DNA from: Rheinheimera hassiensis
GTDB taxonomy: Bacteria; Pseudomonadota; Gammaproteobacteria; Enterobacterales; Alteromonadaceae
Direction of reading: 5' to 3'
Length of the DNA: 64,000 bases
Assembly (NCBI RefSeq): GCF_022436675.1
Contig: NZ_JAKUJZ010000012.1
Location: 1 to 64,000 of the forward strand
A program made the translations under genes and the position numbers. Of this stretch, positions 4,807 through 33,972 are shown one piece after another (position 1 is the stretch's first letter; each line of letters starts with the position of its first letter). Below the pieces are notes generated by a model. It saw only the letters and a list, made by a program, of their open reading frames with translations. It was not told the origin of the DNA and searched no databases.

Positions 4807-5363
4807 TTTTTACCCGGTGTAAAACTGATGCGGCCGCTTTGCACGGCCATATTTACCGGCACCGCGGTAAGTATTTTAACGGTAGGGTTAGATGTATCCA
4901 GTTTGTAAACCGGGTTCGCTGCCAGATAGCTGTTAACTAACTGCAATAACTCATTGGTTACCGGCGCCAGATTACCGCGATAACCGGCAGCTTCAATCTG
5001 TGAGCCCAGCAACTTAACCGAGCGCAGATATACTGCTTTCTCTGTACCATCATAATAAGGCACGCCTTCTACCTGCAGTTGCATATTGGCCGGATAACTT
5101 AAGCCAAACAATGACAACGCAGCAGTGGCGGCGGTATTAACCCGTATCACCTCAGAGTTATCCGGGCCTATTTCCACCTGCATGCTTTCTACCTGCATCT
5201 TTAGCGGAATACCTGCCACATTGGCCTGGCGGGTTAGTTTGGGTATTTGCTGGCGCAACAGTTGCTCTAAGTCTGTCTCCGTAACGTTATACGCCGACAT
5301 TTGCTGCAACTGGCTACACGCCGCCACTAACGTCATTATGATTAACAGCATTATCTTGCGCAT
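4803..5363 (-). CDS. DUF1439 (YceB-like) lipoprotein
   Basis: A 186-residue predicted lipoprotein with a signal peptide ending in a lipobox (VAAC, acylated Cys16). The remainder fits the DUF1439/YceB family of periplasm-facing lipoproteins of unknown function: a basic-hydrophobic N-terminus (TETDLEQLL), then beta-rich lipid-binding-like segments (MQLQVEGVPYYDG, KAVYLRSVKLL). It is transcribed towards the flavoreductase gene and overlaps its end by 4 bp. No function should be assumed. Confidence 0.8.
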   Translation of the reverse strand: MRKIMLLIIMTLVAACSQLQQMSAYNVTETDLEQLLRQQIPKLTRQANVAGIPLKMQVESMQVEIGPDNSEVIRVNTAATAALSLFGLSYPANMQLQVEGVPYYDGTEKAVYLRSVKLLGSQIEAAGYRGNLAPVTNELLQLVNSYLAANPVYKLDTSNPTVKILTAVPVNMAVQSGRISFTPGKN

Positions 5364-5460
5364 GTTTCCCTTTCCTTATGTACTATCCAGTCTGAATTGA
5401 GCTTAGTTTAACACGGCAATAAGATAACGCTTAGTGACTGACTTTTACCTGAATATAAGT

Positions 5461-5476
5461 TGCTCCACGTGAAACA
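5461..5476. promoter_or_regulatory. parS centromere site (left)
   Basis: TGCTCCACGTGAAACA matches the ParB-binding consensus TGTTTCACGTGAAACA at 14 of 16 positions including the central CACGTG. It lies in the gap between the DUF1439 gene and the symporter, about 14 kb from oriC. ParB is encoded at 15.5-16.3 kb. Confidence 0.8.
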
Positions 5477-5568
5477 CAGCCGACCAGCTAAGCAAGGCCA
5501 GCCAGTTTAAGTTGTGATATGCTTTGGCGCGTTCACCGGGAACCTGTATAACATAACGAGAAACAACC

Positions 5569-6708
5569 ATGTCCTTGATCCTTAAACTGATTGCCGGCAT
5601 TATGCTGGGTATGTTGTGTGGCTTGTATGCACCACATTGGCTAACACAACTATTAATTACCTTTAAAGGCCTGTTTGGCGAACTGTTGTTCTTCACCGTG
5701 CCGCTACTTATCCTGTTTTTTATTACCAGCGGAATTGCAGCTTTACCGCGAAATTCCGGCAAGTTACTTAGCCGCACGCTGGGTTTTGCCTACTTGTCTA
5801 CCGTCATTGCGGGCACCTTAGCGTTTTTGGTTGCCAGTGTAGTAGTACCTATGCTAACCAGCGCAAATACTGCTGCCGCGCCAACCGAAGTGACGCATTT
5901 AACCGCTTTTATCGAAATGGATATTCCTCCGGCAATCAGTGTAATGACAGCCTTAGCACTGGCATTTATTTTTGGTTTAGGTATTGCAGCAACACAAGCC
6001 CAGCAATTAAGACAGTTATCGGATCAAGGCCGTGATGTTATTCAGCTAATGCTGGAAAAAGTCATTATTCCACTGCTGCCGCTGTATATCGCGGGTGAGT
6101 TCGCACAAATGGCGGCAGCCGGTACCGTATTTACCACACTAAAAACGTTCGGCATCATACTGGTGCTGGCGGTTGTCATGCACTGGTGCTGGATTATTAC
6201 GCTATACACTATTGCTGGCATTAAAGCCGGTAAGTCGCCTTTTGCCTTAATTAAAACCATGATGCCGGCCTATTTTACAGCACTGGGCACCATGTCGAGC
6301 GCGGCAACCATTCCGGTTTCACTACAAGCCACTAAAGCCAATGGCGTAAAACCGGATGTGGCTAACTTTACCGTACCACTGTGCGCAACCATTCATTTAT
6401 CCGGCTCTACCATTACTATCGTTACCTGCGCCATGGCCGTTGTCACCATGGTAAACGGCCTCGAAATGCCGTCGTTATTAACTGTACTGCCGTTTATCTT
6501 TATGTTGGGCGTAGTAATGCTGGCCGCACCTGGCGTACCCGGCGGTGCGGTAATGTCTGCGGTTGGTCTGTTAGGTTCAATGTTGGGCTTTGGCGAAGCA
6601 GCAATTGCACTAATGATTGCCCTGTACATGGCGCAAGACAGCTTTGGTACCGCCTGTAATGTGACCGGCGACGGTGCTATTGCGGTGTTGGTGGATAAGG
6701 CAGAGTAA
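5569..6708 (+). CDS. Dicarboxylate/amino acid:cation symporter (DAACS family)
   Basis: Inner-membrane secondary transporter of 379 residues, at the short end for glutamate/dicarboxylate symporters. Repeated hydrophobic segments run throughout, and the family's two re-entrant-loop regions are visible: the serine-rich TALGTMSSAATIPVS (about 238-252) and, in TM7/TM8, the ATIHLSGSTITI (about 269-280) and QDSFGTACNVTGDG (about 352-366) motifs that line the substrate and Na+ sites. The substrate (dicarboxylate, glutamate, serine/threonine) cannot be told from sequence. ATG at 5569 follows a weak ribosome site. It is a single-gene unit ending in a bidirectional terminator. Confidence 0.9.
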   Translation: MSLILKLIAGIMLGMLCGLYAPHWLTQLLITFKGLFGELLFFTVPLLILFFITSGIAALPRNSGKLLSRTLGFAYLSTVIAGTLAFLVASVVVPMLTSANTAAAPTEVTHLTAFIEMDIPPAISVMTALALAFIFGLGIAATQAQQLRQLSDQGRDVIQLMLEKVIIPLLPLYIAGEFAQMAAAGTVFTTLKTFGIILVLAVVMHWCWIITLYTIAGIKAGKSPFALIKTMMPAYFTALGTMSSAATIPVSLQATKANGVKPDVANFTVPLCATIHLSGSTITIVTCAMAVVTMVNGLEMPSLLTVLPFIFMLGVVMLAAPGVPGGAVMSAVGLLGSMLGFGEAAIALMIALYMAQDSFGTACNVTGDGAIAVLVDKAE

Positions 6709-6726
6709 ACGGTATCAGATTGCGCA

Positions 6727-6821
6727 GGTTGGAATCCCGATTTGGGCGTCACAGAGTGTCTGAGCCCTGCCGCAGGCATAAGAGCGAGTTGCTGTGACGA
6801 GCCAAAGCGGGAGCTGTAACC
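6727..6821. repeat. Imperfect 95-bp palindrome between the symporter and glmU
   Basis: Arms 6735-6754 and 6792-6812 (TCCCGATTTGG... against a TCCCGCTTTGG... complement, both ending CGTCACAG) pair at about 18 of 20 positions. An outer GGTT/AACC pair (6727-6730, 6818-6821) extends the structure. No protein-coding potential. It may be a REP-type intergenic palindrome or an RNA structure. Confidence 0.6.
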
Positions 6822-6880: not shown

Positions 6881-8245
6881 TTACTTTTTAATTTTCACCG
6901 GCCGTTGCCAATCGCTGATATGCCGCTGCTTAGCGCGCGCCACCACCAACTCACCATCGGCAGCATCACGCGTTAACACCGAGCCAGCACCCACAGTAGC
7001 ATTAACGCCCACTGTTACCGGCGCGACTAAAGCACTGTTCGAACCGATAAAGGCACCGTCTTTAATGGTGGTAACAAACTTATTCGCACCATCATAGTTA
7101 CAGGTAATAGTACCAGCACCCACGTTTACCTTCGCGCCTATTACTGCATCACCCAGATAGGTCAGGTGGTTCGCTTTAGACCCTTTACCTAAAGTGGTTT
7201 TTTTCATTTCAACAAAGTTGCCGACATGACTGTCATCCAGCATCACGCTATCCGGCCTCAGGCGGGCAAAAGGGCCTACCGAACAATCGCTGCCGACAGT
7301 AGCCTTTTCAATCATTGAATTTGGTTTAATCTCAGTGTTATCGCCGATAACGCAGTCTTTTAAAATACAGTTTGCGCCAACAGTCACGCCCTTGCCCAGC
7401 ACCACGGTGCCTTCGAAGATCACATTGATATCAATCATCACATCATTACCCACCTCAACCGTGCCGCGGATATCAAGCCTGGCCGGGTCGCGTAAATTCG
7501 CCCCTGATAGCATCAGCTCTTCGGCTTTACGCAGCTGATAGGCGCGCTCTAGTGCTGCCAATTGCACACGGTTATTGGCACCTTCTACTTCCATCGGGTT
7601 TTGCGGCTGCGCAGTGGCAATTTCTACACCTTCACCGTGCGCCATCGCAATCACATCAGTTAAGTAATATTCACCCTGGGCATTACTGTTGGATAACCGA
7701 CCCAGCCAGCTTTTCAACTGCTTGCCCGGCAACGCCATAATGCCACTGTTTACTTCATTAATTAACAGCTGCTCAGCGCTGGCATCTTTTTGCTCGACAA
7801 TACCGGTTACCTTAGCGTTTTCACGCACGATACGGCCATAGCCGCTCGGGTTGGCTAAGTTCACCGTTAAAATGGCCAGGCCATTAGCCGGCTTTACCGC
7901 CAGCAACTGCTGTAAGGTCTCTAAACGGGTAAGTGGTACATCACCATATAGCACCAGTACAGTGTCATCATCGGCAATATTCGGTATCGCCTGCGCCACC
8001 GCATGGCCGGTGCCCAACTGCTCAGCCTGTAATACCCAGTGCAATGGCTGATCGCTAAGACCTGCTTTTAGCGCATCAGCACCGTAACCATACACCAACT
8101 GTGGTTTCGCTGAGCCCAAGGCGCGGGCAGTATCAATTACATGTTGAACCATCGGCCGCTCAGCCACTTTATGCAGCACCTTAGGTAAATCTGATTTCAT
8201 CCTTGTGCCTTTACCGGCCGCCAGAATCACTACATTTAATGCCAT
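6881..8245 (-). CDS. glmU: Bifunctional UDP-N-acetylglucosamine diphosphorylase / glucosamine-1-phosphate N-acetyltransferase
   Basis: GlmU acetylates glucosamine-1-phosphate and then adds UMP to give UDP-GlcNAc, completing the path begun by GlmS. The N-terminal pyrophosphorylase domain begins [14 protein letters not shown]. The C-terminal half is a left-handed beta-helix acyltransferase with hexapeptide repeats (for example [32 protein letters not shown]). I set the start at the ATG at 8245 ([11 protein letters not shown], 454 residues), the family's usual N-terminus, instead of an upstream in-frame ATG that would add nine unconserved residues. It follows the atp operon in the same direction but is separated from it by a terminator. 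Confidence 0.97.
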
Positions 8246-8355
8246 AAAAGAATCCCTGTAATCATGCTTCATCGATAGTGTGGTTATTCTAATAGATAAC
8301 GCAGCAGATTACAGGGCCAGGGTGAAGTTTTGCTGAACCCCCTGAGCAAAACCAA

Positions 8356-8384
8356 TAAAAAAGCCACCCTAAGGTGGCTTTTTA
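8356..8384 (-). terminator. atp operon terminator
   Basis: AAAAAGCCACC, 3-base loop, AGGTGGCTTTTT just after the atpC stop. The A/T tracts on both sides make it usable from either direction. Confidence 0.85.
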
Positions 8385-8401
8385 TATTTCGGAACCCGAA
8401 C

Positions 8402-8818
8402 TTATTTTTTGCGCATTTTTTGAATAATACGCAGCTGTGCAATGGCTTCAGCCAGTTGCGCGGCAGCTTCAGCATAATTGAAATCTGCGCCAGCGTGTTG
8501 CATCGCTTCTTCGGCACGTTTTTGTGCGTCTAAAGCGGCTTGCTCATCTAAGTCTTCGCCGCGTACCGCGACATCGGCCAGTACGGTGATGGTATCGGGC
8601 TGTACTTCAAGTACACCACCGGCTACGTATATCACGTGTTCTTCGCCAAATTGTTTCACGATACGGACCATGCCAGGTTTCAGGGTGGTCAGTAACGGGG
8701 CGTGGAAAGGTAAAATACCTAACTCGCCCTCACTGCCTGTGACCTGCACGGATTCGACAAGGCCAGAGAAAATTTTCTCTTCGGCACTTACTACATCCAG
8801 TTGCACTGTCATCGCCAT
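8402..8818 (-). CDS. atpC: ATP synthase F1 epsilon subunit
   Basis: Part of the central stalk of F1 and an inhibitor of ATP hydrolysis. 138 residues: N-terminal beta-sandwich ([28 protein letters not shown]) and C-terminal helical hairpin ([16 protein letters not shown] to the end). Last gene of the atp operon, 23 bp after atpD, followed by the operon terminator. Confidence 0.97.
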
Positions 8819-8841
8819 CTCCGCTCTCCTAAAGCCTGAAC

Positions 8842-10236
<1,395 letters not shown>

Positions 10237-28117: not shown

Positions 28118-28127
28118 CTATACAAAA
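28118..28127. repeat. Left direct repeat (att-like) of the island
   Basis: CTATACAAAA, 8 bp after the MFS stop codon, identical to 10 bp inside the mnmE terminal codons at the other end of the island. Confidence 0.55.
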
Positions 28128-28393: not shown

Positions 28394-29269
28394 ATGAGTT
28401 CATTAGATTCGCACGTTGGAATTGTTCTGAATCAGTATGCAACTAGGCTGGAAACCGAATTCGAAAGTAATATATTTTCCTATTATGGGCAAATTCACCC
28501 TAATTTTCTTAGCCACTTTCGAGATAGATTTGAGGCATTTGTTCAGCAGAAATCATCTACAAACGTTAAAAAAGACACTGTCTCGTTTGTTATTAATACG
28601 CCTGGTGGCTCAGCTGAAATGGTTGAGAAAATGTCCGAAATTATCAGATATCATTTCAAAGAAGTTCATTTTATCGTTCCTGATACAGCTATGTCGGCCG
28701 GCACAATCCTTTGTATGTCAGGGGACAAAATTTTTATGGATTATTCCTCTTCTTTAGGCCCTATAGATCCCCAAATTCAGACTGCTGATGGAAAGTTCGT
28801 TCCAGCACTTGGATACCTGGACAAAATCGAAGAAATGATCGCCAAAGATCGAAACAATCAGTTGTCAAATGCTGAGTTTGCACTGTTTCAGAGCCAAGAT
28901 TTAGCAGAACTCAGAAAATACGAACAAGCGAGGGATTTGACCAAGGAGCTATTAACAAAATGGCTAGTCGAATTTAAATTCAAAGATTGGAATGTCCATA
29001 GAACCGACCGTGCTAAGGTTGGGAAAGAGGTGACGATTGCCGAGAAAAGAGAAAGAGCTGAGGAAATTGCTCGATTACTGGGGAATAACGGTCATTGGAA
29101 TAGTCATGGGAGAATGATAAGCTTGACTAAGTTAAGGAACGAACTCCGATTAGAAATTGAGGATTATACAGACCAGCTGGATCGTAGAAACATGATTAGA
29201 GCGTATAACGATTTATTAACTGATTATGTGCAGAGGAATCGGATACCTGTGTACATGCATCATTGTTAG
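28394..29269 (+). CDS. SDH-family Clp-fold serine protease
   Basis: Protein of 291 residues related to the serine dehydrogenase proteinase (SDH/SppA-ClpP crotonase-fold) family. Visible signature elements: INTPGGSAEM (oxyanion region), PDTAMSAGTIL with the probable nucleophile Ser in MSAGT, and SSLGPIDPQI. The C-terminal half is helical and charged. Start set at the ATG at 28394, which has GAGG 7 bp upstream, in place of the GTG at 28373. It is followed after 13 bp by a small gene. AT-rich, unlike the flanking core genes. The protein substrate is unknown; a membrane anchor was not seen. Confidence 0.85.
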   Translation: MSSLDSHVGIVLNQYATRLETEFESNIFSYYGQIHPNFLSHFRDRFEAFVQQKSSTNVKKDTVSFVINTPGGSAEMVEKMSEIIRYHFKEVHFIVPDTAMSAGTILCMSGDKIFMDYSSSLGPIDPQIQTADGKFVPALGYLDKIEEMIAKDRNNQLSNAEFALFQSQDLAELRKYEQARDLTKELLTKWLVEFKFKDWNVHRTDRAKVGKEVTIAEKRERAEEIARLLGNNGHWNSHGRMISLTKLRNELRLEIEDYTDQLDRRNMIRAYNDLLTDYVQRNRIPVYMHHC

Positions 29270-29282
29270 AACAGGAGTTATT

Positions 29283-29462
29283 ATGACCTTAGAAGACAAA
29301 GTTCGAGTATTGCAAGACAGGGGCCCTAAGTTCTCGAGTGAACAAGAGCGAAAACAATTCGAAGAAAAAATGCAGTATATACAAGAGCTTAAAGATAAAG
29401 GCTTAGTTAGGAAACGTACTTATAACCTTGCTATGTCTGGCACGCTTTGTAATACATATTAG
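29283..29462 (+). CDS. Small charged helical protein paired with the protease
   Basis: 59 residues, Lys/Glu-rich and predicted mainly helical (SSEQERKQFEEKMQYIQELKD). ATG at 29283 follows AGGAG with 5-bp spacing, so it is very likely translated; upstream in-frame ATG lacks such a site. The 13-bp gap to the protease gene makes an operon likely; it may be an adaptor, inhibitor or substrate of the protease (inference from position only). Confidence 0.65.
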   Translation: MTLEDKVRVLQDRGPKFSSEQERKQFEEKMQYIQELKDKGLVRKRTYNLAMSGTLCNTY

Positions 29463-29555: not shown

Positions 29556-30242
29556 CTAGGGTAAACACGGTTCCAGAGACTCTCTCAGTTGTTTGGCAAA
29601 AAACGTTGTAGAACTTGTTGAGAACTTACATGACCCAGTCTTTGTGAGCTCTCCATTGGCGCTAACACCGTTTTCAAATTCTATTTTGAATTTTAATGAA
29701 TCTAATTTATATGTTTTGCCGTCAAGAAGAGCTTCTAGATCTCGCCTCACATCAGTTGTACCTTTAACATTTATTTTTGCCAAGCAATCGAACTTGGTAC
29801 GGACTCCATAGCAAGAGATATTATCTATAGTGAGTATGCAATTTCTACTCTCTATCTCTGAAATCCACTTTTCTATATCGAAATTGATATCCGCAACTAC
29901 GACACCTAGTCCAACCATTGATCTGATTTCATTAATGAATTTTCTTAGGGAGCGGGGCGGATCAGTTATGCTTAGGAGTTTCGATTTGCTATTCCATGCA
30001 AATTTGCAGATGTAATAGACGGTGCTTTGACTTTGTATTTTGTTCCCCATTGGGTCTTCTATGTATACGTTTTCTATAGTTTTTTCTATATATTTACCAG
30101 TTAGTGATTCACTGTTGGAAGAACTTAATAAGAAGCCTCGGCCTGACTTTTCAGAATACTGATTTGCCAGCATTAAACTGGATAGCTCTCTCAACGAAAT
30201 TGGGAGTTCGGAATATAGCCATCTCGTGCTTATCATTTTCAT
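29556..30242 (-). CDS. Unknown island protein C (third gene of operon)
   Basis: 228 residues, no family recognised. Mixed alpha/beta with alternating hydrophobic segments (SLMLANQYS near 23, GLGVVVADINFDIEKW near 112-127, KFKIEFENGV) and a Ser/Thr-rich C-terminus. No membrane segment or signal peptide. Its ATG overlaps the stop of the upstream gene by 4 bp (ATGA), a mark of translational coupling. AT-rich codon use. Confidence 0.7.
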   Translation of the reverse strand: MKMISTRWLYSELPISLRELSSLMLANQYSEKSGRGFLLSSSNSESLTGKYIEKTIENVYIEDPMGNKIQSQSTVYYICKFAWNSKSKLLSITDPPRSLRKFINEIRSMVGLGVVVADINFDIEKWISEIESRNCILTIDNISCYGVRTKFDCLAKINVKGTTDVRRDLEALLDGKTYKLDSLKFKIEFENGVSANGELTKTGSCKFSTSSTTFFAKQLRESLEPCLP

Positions 30243-31324
30243 TCTTCCAATGAATTGATGACAGTTTTGTATGCTTGCTCCGCAGCTTCTCGAAGCAGCT
30301 TGTTCATCGTGTCGTTCTCTTTAGGTGTTGCCGCCCTTCTGGTTATATTGAAAGACTTCGTTCTTTCTTGAAAGTTATAAATTCCGCGAACCATGTATTT
30401 GAAGTCTGTACAGTCTGATGGAGAACCGAATTGTGTCTCGAACTCTACTTTGTCACCACCTTCAACTCCAGATATCCCAGTCCAAATTATTTTATATATG
30501 AAGAAACCTCGCTTGTGGAGTTGCTGGAACTCCTGAGAGTCAAGGACCCCTTCTCCAGCAAGCGCAGCTCTATTTATATATGAAGCTAACCTTGCTTCTC
30601 GTTCATCATCATCATCTTCACTCTCATCTTCGATCGTGTGGAATACGTCTACGCTGGTTACCGTATCAAATTTATACCCCGGCACGTTTCGCACAAGTAC
30701 ATCGAAAAATCTGCTTCGAGTCTCTGGTGATATGATGCTTGAAAGGTTAATACTGAACTCTTCAATCGTTTGACCATCCTGGAGCTGAGCGCTTAGTACT
30801 TGCTTTAGTCTAGAGGCGATATCTGCAGCTTTCTTAGTTGAAGGCATTTTTAACACTACGCCTTCATTAGTTTTTTCAATCTCGATATCACAGGTTTTTA
30901 CTGCACGTTGACGTAACTCAGTTTTTGAGAAATCAAGATCGACGTAAGTCACAGATAGCTTGGTTGTACCGTTTTTCTGAGTTAATTTAACGGAGTTATC
31001 AATTTCTATGTTTGACTTTACAGTCGTGCAAGCTTTTCTAACATCATCTTCGGTTACTTCAAATTTTAAGGTCGTATGTGTAGATTTTTCTTTCTTGTTC
31101 GGGTTTTCAAGTAGCTTGGTTAGCCAAATAAAATCATGATACCCAAAGTTCAGCGAAGTAATTCGCTCAATCAGCATGTCCTTTGGAGCATTTAAAGGAA
31201 AAAATATTCCTCTAGTTCTTAAAAATTTTAGTAGTTCTAATTGTGTTACTTTCTTGTGTTGCAAAGCATCAAAAATGTTCTTATCCGTTGGGATGTAGAT
31301 TGCTGGACCGGTAGCATTACTCAT
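30239..31324 (-). CDS. Unknown island protein B (second gene of operon), possible SAP-like N-terminus
   Basis: 361 residues, not recognised. The N-terminus (LELLKFLRTRGIFFPLNAPKDMLIERITSL, about 29-58, described in parts: LLKFLRTRGI then DMLIERI) has the helix-loop-helix spacing of SAP/HeH DNA-binding modules, a weak resemblance. A central beta-rich region follows, then an acidic run EDESEDDDDE near residue 233, and a C-terminal segment with FNITRRAATPKEND. It starts 8 bp inside the end of gene A and its end overlaps gene C by 4 bp, so A-B-C are one tightly coupled operon. Confidence 0.7.
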   Translation of the reverse strand: MSNATGPAIYIPTDKNIFDALQHKKVTQLELLKFLRTRGIFFPLNAPKDMLIERITSLNFGYHDFIWLTKLLENPNKKEKSTHTTLKFEVTEDDVRKACTTVKSNIEIDNSVKLTQKNGTTKLSVTYVDLDFSKTELRQRAVKTCDIEIEKTNEGVVLKMPSTKKAADIASRLKQVLSAQLQDGQTIEEFSINLSSIISPETRSRFFDVLVRNVPGYKFDTVTSVDVFHTIEDESEDDDDEREARLASYINRAALAGEGVLDSQEFQQLHKRGFFIYKIIWTGISGVEGGDKVEFETQFGSPSDCTDFKYMVRGIYNFQERTKSFNITRRAATPKENDTMNKLLREAAEQAYKTVINSLEE

Positions 31325-32297
31325 ACTGCATTCCTATCTCAATTTCACTGAACCTTGTCGTGAATTGCTTAATCTGGGCGCACTCAACGCGTGACATTTG
31401 TTTACGCCTAGCTTCATCCTCACCCCAGATTCTCATGTACTCAATTTTTGCTTTTTCGAAATTTGAGATAGCGAAATTAGAAGGGTTTACCAAGCGGACT
31501 CTTATTTTGTAATCACTCACGAGCATTTGATAGTGTGACATTGCATCAATCAAATAGATGAATTCTTCAATAGTTTCACCTGATGGATGGTAATAAATAA
31601 TAAAGCCATCTGAAATCATATCTTCAACTCCTCGATGTTTGATTATTAGCCAAGGAGCTGTAAGAGCTTCTATCGTAGCGGCTTTCTTCCATTCATCACC
31701 ATTTCGTCTAGACCGAACTAAGTCAGGGTAGAAAAACGTGTAGTTTTCAATGCTTGGGAGTAAGTCGTCTCCCTTTAACATTTTCAGATCACATACTATG
31801 TTCAGAAGTTTCTCTATGAGATCTGGCCCCATCAAAGTCAGGGAGCCGAATTCAGATATTGGGATTTTTTCAAAATCGATTGTATTTATATGATCTTGGA
31901 AATTTTTATCGAAATCGCCATCATGGTTATAGATAAAGAGAATTCCTGATACCTGATCAAATCCATCAGGTTTTATCAAATATAGTTTTTGCCAGTCTTC
32001 ACTGATATTTGCGCACTCTGTAGCAATAGCAAGTGACTTCAACGCCTTGGTAATAGATGTAACCTGGATTGACGATTTCGCATAACTCTTAAGATCAACG
32101 TTTTGATAGACTGTCATTCCTGAATACGGATCGTCATAGTAAAAAACTACATCGGAAGGATGGGTTTTTTTACCGTGGCTATCGGTAACACATTCCCAAT
32201 CAATATCACGTGGTCCGGATGAACTCCATTTAAAATACTTAAAAAGCTCATCAAAAACGAGCTTGGCCATTGTTTCGATATTTCCAGTCTCTGACAT
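31317..32297 (-). CDS. Unknown island protein A (first gene of operon), possible PD-(D/E)XK-type nuclease
   Basis: 326 residues, not assigned to a named family. The N-terminal 110 residues carry an arrangement seen in PD-(D/E)XK nucleases: a helix with a Glu (VFDELFKYFKW, about 14-24), then PSD-VVFYY (Asp48 region), then NVDLKSYAK (about 66-74) giving a D-x(n)-DxK pattern, followed by a long helix. A C-terminal region with YMRIWGEDEARRKQM follows. The nuclease idea rests on this pattern only. ATG at 32297 with GAGAG upstream; first gene of the A-B-C operon, transcribed from the gap next to mnmE. Confidence 0.65.
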   Translation of the reverse strand: MSETGNIETMAKLVFDELFKYFKWSSSGPRDIDWECVTDSHGKKTHPSDVVFYYDDPYSGMTVYQNVDLKSYAKSSIQVTSITKALKSLAIATECANISEDWQKLYLIKPDGFDQVSGILFIYNHDGDFDKNFQDHINTIDFEKIPISEFGSLTLMGPDLIEKLLNIVCDLKMLKGDDLLPSIENYTFFYPDLVRSRRNGDEWKKAATIEALTAPWLIIKHRGVEDMISDGFIIYYHPSGETIEEFIYLIDAMSHYQMLVSDYKIRVRLVNPSNFAISNFEKAKIEYMRIWGEDEARRKQMSRVECAQIKQFTTRFSEIEIGMQYE

Positions 32298-32607: not shown

Positions 32608-33972
32608 TTATTTTCCTATACAAAACGAGCTGAAAATCTTACCCAGCAAATCATCAGAACTAAACTCGCCGGTTATTTCATTTAAGTGCTGCTGGGTTAG
32701 CCGCAGCTCTTCGGCGAGAATTTCGCCGGCGATATAGCTGTGCAGTTGCTCCTGGCCAATAGCAAGGTGCTCTGCGGCACGATCCAGTGCGTCTAAATGG
32801 CGGCGGCGGGCGAGAAAGCTGCCTTCGGTACTGGCGTCAAAGCCGATACATTGTTTTAAATGCTCGCGCAGCGCATCGATACCATCGCCGGTTTTGGCCG
32901 ACAAACGATACACGGGTGTATGACTATCAGTATCCGGAGTCATTGGTTCGCCGGTTAAATCGGCTTTATTGCGAATAACCGTTACACCCAAATTTGCCGG
33001 TAAGCGGTCGATAAAGTCGGGCCAGATATCGTGCGGGTCGGTGGCGTTGGTGGTGGTGCCGTCGACCATAAACAACACACGGTCGGCCTGCTCAATTTCT
33101 TTCCACGCCCGTTCTATACCAATTTGCTCCACCTGATCGGTAGCATCACGTAAACCGGCAGTGTCGATAATATGCAGCGGCATACCATCGATATGAATAT
33201 GCTCGCGCAGCACGTCGCGGGTGGTACCGGCTATTTCGGTCACTATAGCCGCTTCATGGCCGGCTAGGGCATTTAGCAGGCTGGATTTGCCGGCGTTAGG
33301 TCGTCCGGCTATTACTACCTTCATGCCTTCGCGCAAAATACTGCCCTGGGTCGCCTGCTTTTTTACGGTGGCCAGGTAGTCGATAATTTCAGCTAAATCG
33401 GCGGCGACTTTGCCGTCGGATAAAAAGTCGATTTCTTCATCAGGGAAATCTATCGCTGCTTCGACATACATGCGCAGGTGAATAACTTTTTCTACCAGTT
33501 GATGAATACGGTTCGAGAACTCGCCTTGCAGCGATTGCATGGCACTGCGTGCAGCTTGTTCGCTGCTGGCGTCAATTAAGTCGGCGATGGCTTCGGCCTG
33601 AGCTAAATCGAGCTTGTCGTTTAAAAAAGCGCGCTCTGAGAATTCGCCGGGGCGGGCAATACGGACATTCGGCTGGGCTAATACCTGTTTTAACAGCATA
33701 TCGAGTAATACCGGGCCGCCATGGCCTTGTAGCTCAAGTACATCTTCGCCGGTAAACGAATTTGGGCCGGGGAAGAGCAGGGCAATGCCTTGATCCAGCA
33801 CCTTGGCTTGGCCATCAAAAAACGGTAAGTACTCAGCGTAGCGCGGTTTAGGCAGTTTGTGCAGGATAGCCTGAGCTACGGCTTTGGTGTCGGGGCCGGA
33901 GATGCGGATAATACCAACACCGGCGCGGCCGGGGGCGGTGGCTAAAGCGGCGATGGTGTCGGTAGTAAACAT
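32608..33972 (-). CDS. mnmE: tRNA uridine-5-carboxymethylaminomethyl modification GTPase
   Basis: Partner of MnmG in wobble-uridine modification. 454 residues: N-terminal tetrahydrofolate-binding domain ([21 protein letters not shown]), G domain with GRPNAGKSS (about 223-231), GTTRD and DTAGLRD switches and NKAD, and the intact C-terminal FCIGK with the functional Cys. The last codons double as the right border repeat of the island, so the island leaves the protein unaltered. Confidence 0.98.
32616..32625. repeat. Right direct repeat (att-like) of the island, inside mnmE
   Basis: CTATACAAAA; complement of the codons for the conserved C-terminal F-C-I of MnmE. Second copy of the repeat at 28118-28127. 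Confidence 0.55.

Follow-up and report, generated by a model that had tools for sequence, protein, structure and literature searches.

The three overlapping genes at positions 29556–32297 of a 64,000-nucleotide stretch of Rheinheimera hassiensis DNA (contig NZ_JAKUJZ010000012.1, positions 1–64,000; hereafter the window) belong, according to our profile searches, to the already described anti-phage system 3HP (Rst_3HP), and profile-profile comparisons identify two of their products, A and B, as homologs of the proteins of another system, GAPS4. We consider it probable that the A-B-C trio is a 3HP anti-phage system carried on a small cargo insertion, with A a nuclease gated by B, and C a second gripping or gating subunit. 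This explanation builds on the 3HP membership, the gene order, the mobile setting, the invariance of a motif in A and the homology of A and B to GAPS4, all of which we count as established. The genes are arranged as follows:

31317–32297, minus strand: A, Hp1 of 3HP, 326 aa; predicted PD-(D/E)XK-type nuclease, GapS4a homolog
30239–31324, minus strand: B, Hp2 of 3HP, 361 aa; GapS4b homolog, predicted DNA-gripping sensor
29556–30242, minus strand: C, Hp3 of 3HP, 228 aa; third subunit

Genes A and B overlap by 8 bp (31317–31324) and genes B and C by 4 bp (30239–30242), in agreement with the coordinates, lengths and overlaps of the three open reading frames given in an earlier description made from the DNA sequence (hereafter the original prediction). 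That these are genes rather than chance open reading frames is indicated by the near-full-length relatives of A in genomes, phages and plasmids, which are adjoined by relatives of B and C.

Identification of the trio as a 3HP system

The PADLOC search proposed in the original prediction matched all three proteins to the models of a single system: A to Hp1 (E-value 5.3e-73) and B to Hp2 (2.2e-61), both over almost their entire length, and C to Hp3 (1e-15) over residues 16–188. The gene order, the single strand and the adjacency of the genes are as in 3HP, and so is the mobile setting. A homologous trio in the database record of Vibrio phage 1F53_PE003 bears the labels Rst_3HP__Hp1, Hp2 and Hp3. 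In PHROGs, A, B and C fall with near-full-length matches into phrog_7059 (E-value 1.9e-102), phrog_6531 (4.9e-88) and phrog_5850 (1.5e-35), all three of them families of unknown function, and Pfam contains no above-cut-off match for any of the three proteins. The window Hp1 is 58–62% identical to copies from Shewanella, Marinomonas, Vibrio, Photobacterium, Salinivibrio and one metagenome bin, and 38% identical to the copy of a Klebsiella P2-like phage. The described system comes from the P2 hotspot, whereas the window copy lies at the 3' end of the chromosomal mnmE gene.

In the passages of Rousset et al. 2022 (PMC9122126) that deal with it, a three-gene system without clear domains, cloned from an E. 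coli P2-phage hotspot, is reported to protect against phage P1. The name, the number of genes and the carriage by P2-like phages lead us to infer that this system is the 3HP of the databases. The relevant part of the DefenseFinder paper (PMC9090908) lists Rst_3HP among the systems that are mostly prophage-encoded, and the table of one survey gives the 3HP mechanism as unknown; judging by title, our literature search on 3HP with phage terms brought up no mechanism paper among the matches listed. The "defence module" of the original prediction is thus correct, judged by the relatives of the trio. It is neither "new" nor "unrecognised", as was claimed there, since it is modelled in PADLOC (Hp1–Hp3), named in the DefenseFinder paper and labelled in the Vibrio phage record, and by our reading a relative has been tested with phage by Rousset et al.

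Relationship to GAPS4

B matches the NCBIfam model of GapS4b (NF047934) with 22.2 bits, far from the cut-off of 300. Following this weak match we searched for the GapS4b family in 394 genomes of the order and found it in 10 of them at an E-value of 0.001, seven times over the cut-off; the three matches under it are the genome of the window itself, the 3HP carrier G023, and G334. Each of the seven loci has an open reading frame of 312–333 aa directly upstream, which we took to be GapS4a. The GapS4b alignment excludes one locus with a broken GapS4b (L147), and both GAPS4 alignments exclude the G334 locus (L148), which has a weak GapS4b match and no recognised GapS4a-like frame.

Comparison by hhalign scored Hp1 against GapS4a at 98.7% (E-value 2.3e-16, 210 columns) and Hp2 against GapS4b at 97.5% (E-value 5.7e-12, 335 columns), the two cross-controls scoring 0.2% and 0.1%. 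Profile searches are in partial agreement: among the open reading frames of the seven GAPS4 loci, a small search space, the Hp1 profile found one of seven GapS4a (E-value 1.9e-17) and the Hp2 profile two of seven GapS4b (1.6e-8 and 7.5e-7), while the Hp3 profile found nothing at E-values up to 10 in any of the seven. A and GapS4a share the N-terminal E, G-W, C-x-H...H-[PG]-x-D, x-x-K and a second C. On the strength of these alignments we regard A and B as homologous to GapS4a and GapS4b, with common ancestry of both subunits. GAPS4 has the same two-gene core of nuclease plus partner as A-B, and it is Hp3, not found in the seven GAPS4 loci, that sets 3HP apart; in terms of profile comparison, 3HP adds a third subunit to the pair known from GAPS4. 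The GAPS4 system is said to have been presented by Mahata et al. 2024. Among the matches listed in our literature search no paper stated a link between 3HP and GAPS4, and as none of those listed was on GAPS4 itself, we claim no priority for it.

Protein A: a predicted PD-(D/E)XK nuclease

The alignment of 44 Hp1 sequences (relatives thinned at 85% identity) reveals E3, D49, D68, L69 and K70 as invariant in all 44, together with W24, C36, H46, P47, C95 and N124. The D...DxK pattern noticed in A by the original prediction corresponds to D49...D68-L-K70. Eighty-six of the 88 distinct Hp1 sequences carry the motif, and the other two (from loci L114 and L115 in our numbering) are cut by contig starts and lack the motif region. 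In the AlphaFold2 model of A (mean predicted local distance difference test score, pLDDT, 87.7; predicted template modelling score, pTM, 0.87) an N-terminal helix spans residues 2–21, D49 lies between the short strands 45–48 and 50–55, and D68–K70 are situated inside the next long strand, 62–72. This modelled layout is compatible with the arrangement of helix and strands usual for PD-(D/E)XK enzymes. RefSeq calls one of the trio genes a PD-(D/E)XK nuclease domain protein in one of the ten E. coli rows listed. Based on the invariant residues and the model, we predict that A is a metal-dependent PD-(D/E)XK nuclease.

C36, H46, C95 and a His near position 41 are common to Hp1 and to GapS4a (loci L141–L147), the latter His not being column-aligned in every row. 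It is possible that this shared Cys/His set binds a metal in a structural role, next to the nuclease motif. A glutaredoxin match of A scored far under its cut-off and was rejected.

Proposed mechanism and points against it

According to the mechanism that we propose, A would at first be held inactive or untargeted. B would grip some feature of the incoming phage DNA (ends, forks and DNA undergoing recombination are candidates), and C would serve as a further subunit that either grips nucleic acid too or acts as a gate. Once B has taken hold, A would cut nucleic acid, be it phage DNA, host DNA or RNA.

Several observations weigh against this reading. The protection reported in the relevant passages of PMC9122126 is that of the E. 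coli system rather than of the window copy, and P1 is the sole phage named there, out of a panel of eight. Sequence searches with the profiles of A, B and C turned up no relative of known structure with a convincing E-value. In place of the D-x-K of A, GapS4a carries S-x-K, and in the model of A residues 1–3, E3 included, have pLDDT below 50. A Foldseek search with this model against the Protein Data Bank (PDB) found no match at an E-value below 0.001, and among the 50 rows listed it was the APOBEC3 chains that were ahead by E-value, taking 27 rows; those among the first 17 rows superimpose with a root-mean-square deviation (rmsd) of 14–18 Å and a probability of at most 0.25. Twelve of the 50 rows are HamA, Cap4, FokI (twice), MspJI, SduA, NucS (twice), Can2 (three times) and AddAB, all of which we take to be PD-(D/E)XK enzymes; their superposition on A is poor, with a template modelling (TM) score of at most 0.27. 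The highest probabilities of the 50 belong to four of these enzymes, namely Cap4 (0.82), FokI (0.77), MspJI (0.60) and Can2 (0.57). We regard the Foldseek result for the modelled A as support for a nuclease and not as proof; of the nuclease-like character originally ascribed to A, the catalytic-type residues have turned out to be invariant, and the support from the fold is weak. As for B, its model superimposes on CENP-N, the best structural match described in the next section, with TM scores of 0.20–0.36 and an rmsd of 8.5–15.5 Å.

The APOBEC3 rows, together with the invariance of C36, H46 and C95, might be taken as a sign that A, instead of being a nuclease, is a zinc-dependent deaminase. 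We give this idea hardly any credence. Over all 27 rows the APOBEC3 superposition is bad (rmsd 6–18 Å, exceeding 9 Å in 22 of them; TM scores up to 0.27 and probabilities up to 0.54), and the invariant columns of A contain neither of the deaminase motifs, HxE and PCxxC, having D49 and D68-L-K70 instead.

The homology of A and B to GAPS4 also lends itself to a reading in terms of abortive infection, in which B (and C) would sense phage DNA and A would cut host tRNA or the chromosome and stop the cell, instead of clearing the phage DNA. GAPS4 reportedly senses DNA ends and cleaves tRNA, and small systems made of a nuclease and a sensor are often abortive. Against this speaks the D-x-K of A, which is that of DNA-cutting PD-(D/E)XK enzymes, as opposed to the S-x-K of GapS4a. 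Given this difference, A and GapS4a may not have their chemistry or substrate in common, and it suggests that 3HP and GAPS4 may cut different things. Abortive infection is in our opinion a serious possibility, with somewhat less than an even chance of being right.

Protein B: a CENP-N-like model

The AlphaFold2 model of B (pLDDT 88.7, pTM 0.78) has four helices at residues 14–72 and an alpha/beta domain starting from residue 81. Residues 81–179 follow the order beta-alpha-beta-beta-beta-beta-alpha, which is the element order of a TBP half, and residues 188–360 repeat a similar order with an insertion. We read the model as a helical N-terminus followed by two TBP-like halves. In the Foldseek search of B against the PDB the nine best rows either have CENP-N in the title or show chain N of an inner-kinetochore complex, all with probability 1.00 and seven of them at an E-value below 0.001, and the tenth row is Iml3, the yeast CENP-L (probability 0.96). 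As a single control, the model of A gave no match under 0.001 by the same procedure.

According to an eLife paper on CENP-N (PMC5777823), residues 1–77 of this protein form a five-helix PYRIN-like bundle and residues 78–212 a sheet of six strands flanked by helices, with loops that straddle DNA; the second domain of CENP-L is found there to be related. B divides into its domains (14–72 and from 81) at a point that agrees with the boundary in CENP-N (1–77 and 78–212). The kinetochore function, however, is that of CENP-N/Chl4 and CENP-L/Iml3 and not of B, which has no sequence match to them: Pfam gave no CENP-N match in B itself at E-values up to 1, and neither the Hp2 nor the GapS4b profile found anything among PDB sequences at E-values up to 10. 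By title, no paper tying CENP-N to TBP-like or bacterial proteins was among the matches listed in our literature search, and no match listed for kinetochore plus anti-phage terms contains the word "anti-phage".

Weak Foldseek matches of B were to RnlA, the toxin of RnlA-RnlB (probabilities 0.85, 0.77 and 0.63). RnlA is a self-contained RNA-cutting toxin, whereas B has no recognised nuclease motif. When B was compared with viral models, a phage recombination-associated protein came first (TM score 0.38, rmsd 9.7 Å, probability 1.00).

The original prediction described a SAP/HeH-like start and an acidic stretch in B and assigned it a DNA-binding role. The model does contain a helix-extended-helix segment at residues 28–56, but no SAP/HeH match was found at E-values up to 1 in Pfam, PADLOC, PHROGs or NCBIfam, so the SAP/HeH assignment was rejected; the acidic stretch corresponds to a low-confidence loop (residues 231–250, mean pLDDT 62–63). 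B is thus not a SAP protein, and it is the resemblance of its modelled fold to DNA-binding proteins that suggests DNA binding. DUF4518 (PF15008) matches 15 of 46 Hp2 sequences (best E-value 1.5e-5), and in the window B it covers residues 15–70, under the cut-off.

Protein C

For C, profile searches revealed no family and no solved relative. A RepA match scored far under the cut-off, and an mTERF match of the Hp3 profile, which extends over 40 positions with E-values of 0.07 and worse, was dropped. A relation of C to RdgC by sequence was rejected, as Hp3 compared with 14 RdgC proteins scored 0.2% in hhalign. This low score bears on the suggestion that the trio is a phage-borne module for recombination or DNA processing, made of a nuclease and an RdgC-like protein, whose anti-phage effect would be secondary. 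Such a suggestion finds some backing in the record of the filamentous Pseudomonas phage 54-4, where Hp1 is annotated "nuclease related" and Hp3 "RdgC-like exonuclease", and in the best viral match of B. Besides the RdgC score, it is opposed by the accessory positions of the trio in unrelated carriers (P2-like phages, filamentous phages, plasmids and a chromosomal insertion) and by the protection against P1 conferred by a cloned three-gene system of such description. We consider it improbable.

At 0.8%, the profile comparison of Hp3 with Hp2 does not show B and C to share an origin. The secondary structure of C was estimated crudely from the alignment, by a procedure trained on A and B, which scored 0.66 and 0.68 with one of the two for training and the other for testing. 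In the first half the estimate gives a strand at 5–15, a helix at 17–25, strands at 38–41 and 49–51, a helix at 52–61, a mixed stretch at 69–84 that ends in a strand, a strand at 89–92 and a helix at 98–109; residues 114–223 follow as strand-helix-strand-strand-helix-strand-strand-strand-helix, partly in short mixed stretches. A TBP half has no place for the helix at 52–61. In a test of hydrophobic periodicity, which gave the correct answer for 12 of 15 known, hand-chosen segments of A and B, residues 49–61 and 69–84 look more like strands than helices. By this crude estimate the pattern of C would be partly similar to that of B. Pfam CENP-L matches one of 49 Hp3 sequences (E-value 0.0074), which is not significant given that 49 were scanned, chance being plausible, and no CENP-L match appeared in ten Hp3 sequences (two of them also among the 49) scanned to an E-value of 10. 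That B and C make up a CENP-N/CENP-L-like pair is put forward as a suggestion only.

Phylogenetic distribution and gene order

Relatives of A were found on 8 genome contigs (58–62% identity), in 8 of 50,697 phage records, in 21 of 72,556 plasmid records (with at least 80% of A covered in 6) and in 3 genomes besides its own among 197 of the order. Scanning viral contigs with single-sequence queries led nowhere; an alignment query revealed 96 stretches, of which 80 were retained. The E. coli trio was matched in 18 of 5,426 complete E. coli genomes, in 17 of them over at least 80% of the trio; 13 of the records match at 99% or more and 5 at 80–90%. The carriers of 3HP comprise P2-like phages, where the trio lies near the portal gene, filamentous Pseudomonas phages, and plasmids of conjugative, mobilizable and non-mobilizable kinds. 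Two of the filamentous Pseudomonas phages (L015 and L016) bear a complete trio as cargo, i.e. a predicted nuclease system in a phage with single-stranded DNA.

The order A-B-C, with all three genes on the same strand, holds for 122 of 125 loci. Genomes, phages and plasmids supplied 23 of the 125; the other 102 are viral-contig loci from 83 distinct contigs, 19 of these loci being from contigs counted before. The three exceptions (L030, L066 and L085) run into a contig end, B still being readable in L085. As the loci were located via A or B, it is the presence of C that the count tests independently. A lack of such co-occurrence elsewhere had been named in the original prediction as grounds for refuting the defence module; the opposite is found. 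In one of the 122 loci (L025, genome G023) Hp2 is split by a 1.7 kb insertion (5139–6816), which holds a 509-residue open frame, perhaps a transposase.

Intergenic distances were measured with the start codon closest to the preceding stop, a choice that favours short distances. Among 121 plus-strand loci, A-to-B spacing ranges from an 11-base overlap to an 11-base gap, and B-to-C spacing, in 120 of them, from a 41-base overlap to a 14-base gap. In the remaining locus (L080) Hp2, which at 336 aa is below the usual length, and Hp3 are separated by 1320 bases (8061–9380). Because the overlap lengths vary between relatives, they point to co-transcription and not, as had been concluded from the 8 and 4 bp overlaps, to a fixed stoichiometric unit.

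The insertion at the 3' end of mnmE

In the window the trio shares with two further genes an insertion of 4.5 kb, located at the 3' end of mnmE, the attachment site of SGI1-type islands; the "known hotspot" of the original prediction is right. The flanking features are:

28118–28127: left insertion end, direct repeat CTATACAAAA
28373–29269, plus strand: SDH-type Clp-fold serine protease, passenger (Pfam SDH_protease, E-value 1.4e-14, over the cut-off)
29226–29462, plus strand: small open reading frame overlapping the protease gene
32608–33972, minus strand: mnmE, host gene, whose 3' end is the integration site
32616–32625: right insertion end, direct repeat CTATACAAAA, within the last mnmE codons

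mnmE is present in all 31 genomes of the genus searched, its own included, and for comparison we used the mnmE-downstream regions of 16 of the 30 others. In these the window stretch 28.13–32.59 kb has no blastn match at an E-value of 1e-10. The sequences that flank the trio in the window are at most ~15 bases apart or overlap in four (L177, L178, L179 and L180), lie ~30 bases apart in L189 and ~110 in L187, and are separated by 1.3–2.9 kb in eight (L175, L176, L181, L182, L183, L185, L188 and L190); in L184 and L186 the left flank is outside the fetched stretch. As read from the sequence, the window and the empty sites encode the same last residues of MnmE.

The 3' end of mnmE is a variable site within the genus. 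According to the annotation of 10 scanned proteins from L182, L184 and L186, the cargo includes a gene for a multi-ubiquitin/E2 protein and a ThiF-JAB gene in L184, a pair of ORC-CDC6-like and PRTase-CE genes in L186, and an ordinary gene, for an aldo/keto reductase, in L182. A tyrosine integrase adjoins mnmE in L184 and L186; no integrase gene was seen among the listed open reading frames of the window's insertion.

The protease gene faces the trio and belongs to phrog_11747 (E-value 2.9e-59), with only partial, weak matches in 7 genomes besides its own, out of 197. Neither the protease nor the frame at 29226–29462 has a tblastn match at an E-value of 1e-3 in 149 loci, the 3HP loci included, and on this ground both were rejected as parts of the module. 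A match of the latter frame to Avs1c scored far under its cut-off.

Implications

The defence character of the trio is a correct finding that had already been explained, and the trio is not a new defence system: name, models and a phage assay in a relative exist. What seems worth passing on is the link to GAPS4 and the likeness of the B model to CENP-N. The homology of two 3HP proteins to GAPS4 and the map of residues (E3, D49, D68, K70 and the shared Cys/His set) open the way to a direct mutational test. Going further, 3HP and GAPS4 could form one nuclease-driven defence superfamily, the DNA-gripping subunits of which (Hp2/GapS4b, and in 3HP also Hp3) have the fold and the pairing of the eukaryotic inner-kinetochore heterodimer CENP-N/CENP-L. 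A part of the kinetochore might then descend from a phage-defence DNA sensor or have a common ancestor with it; we offer this whole picture as a speculation that is rather unlikely to hold in full. If the CENP-N likeness is upheld by a solved structure, B would be a prokaryotic counterpart of a DNA-gripping protein of the inner kinetochore.

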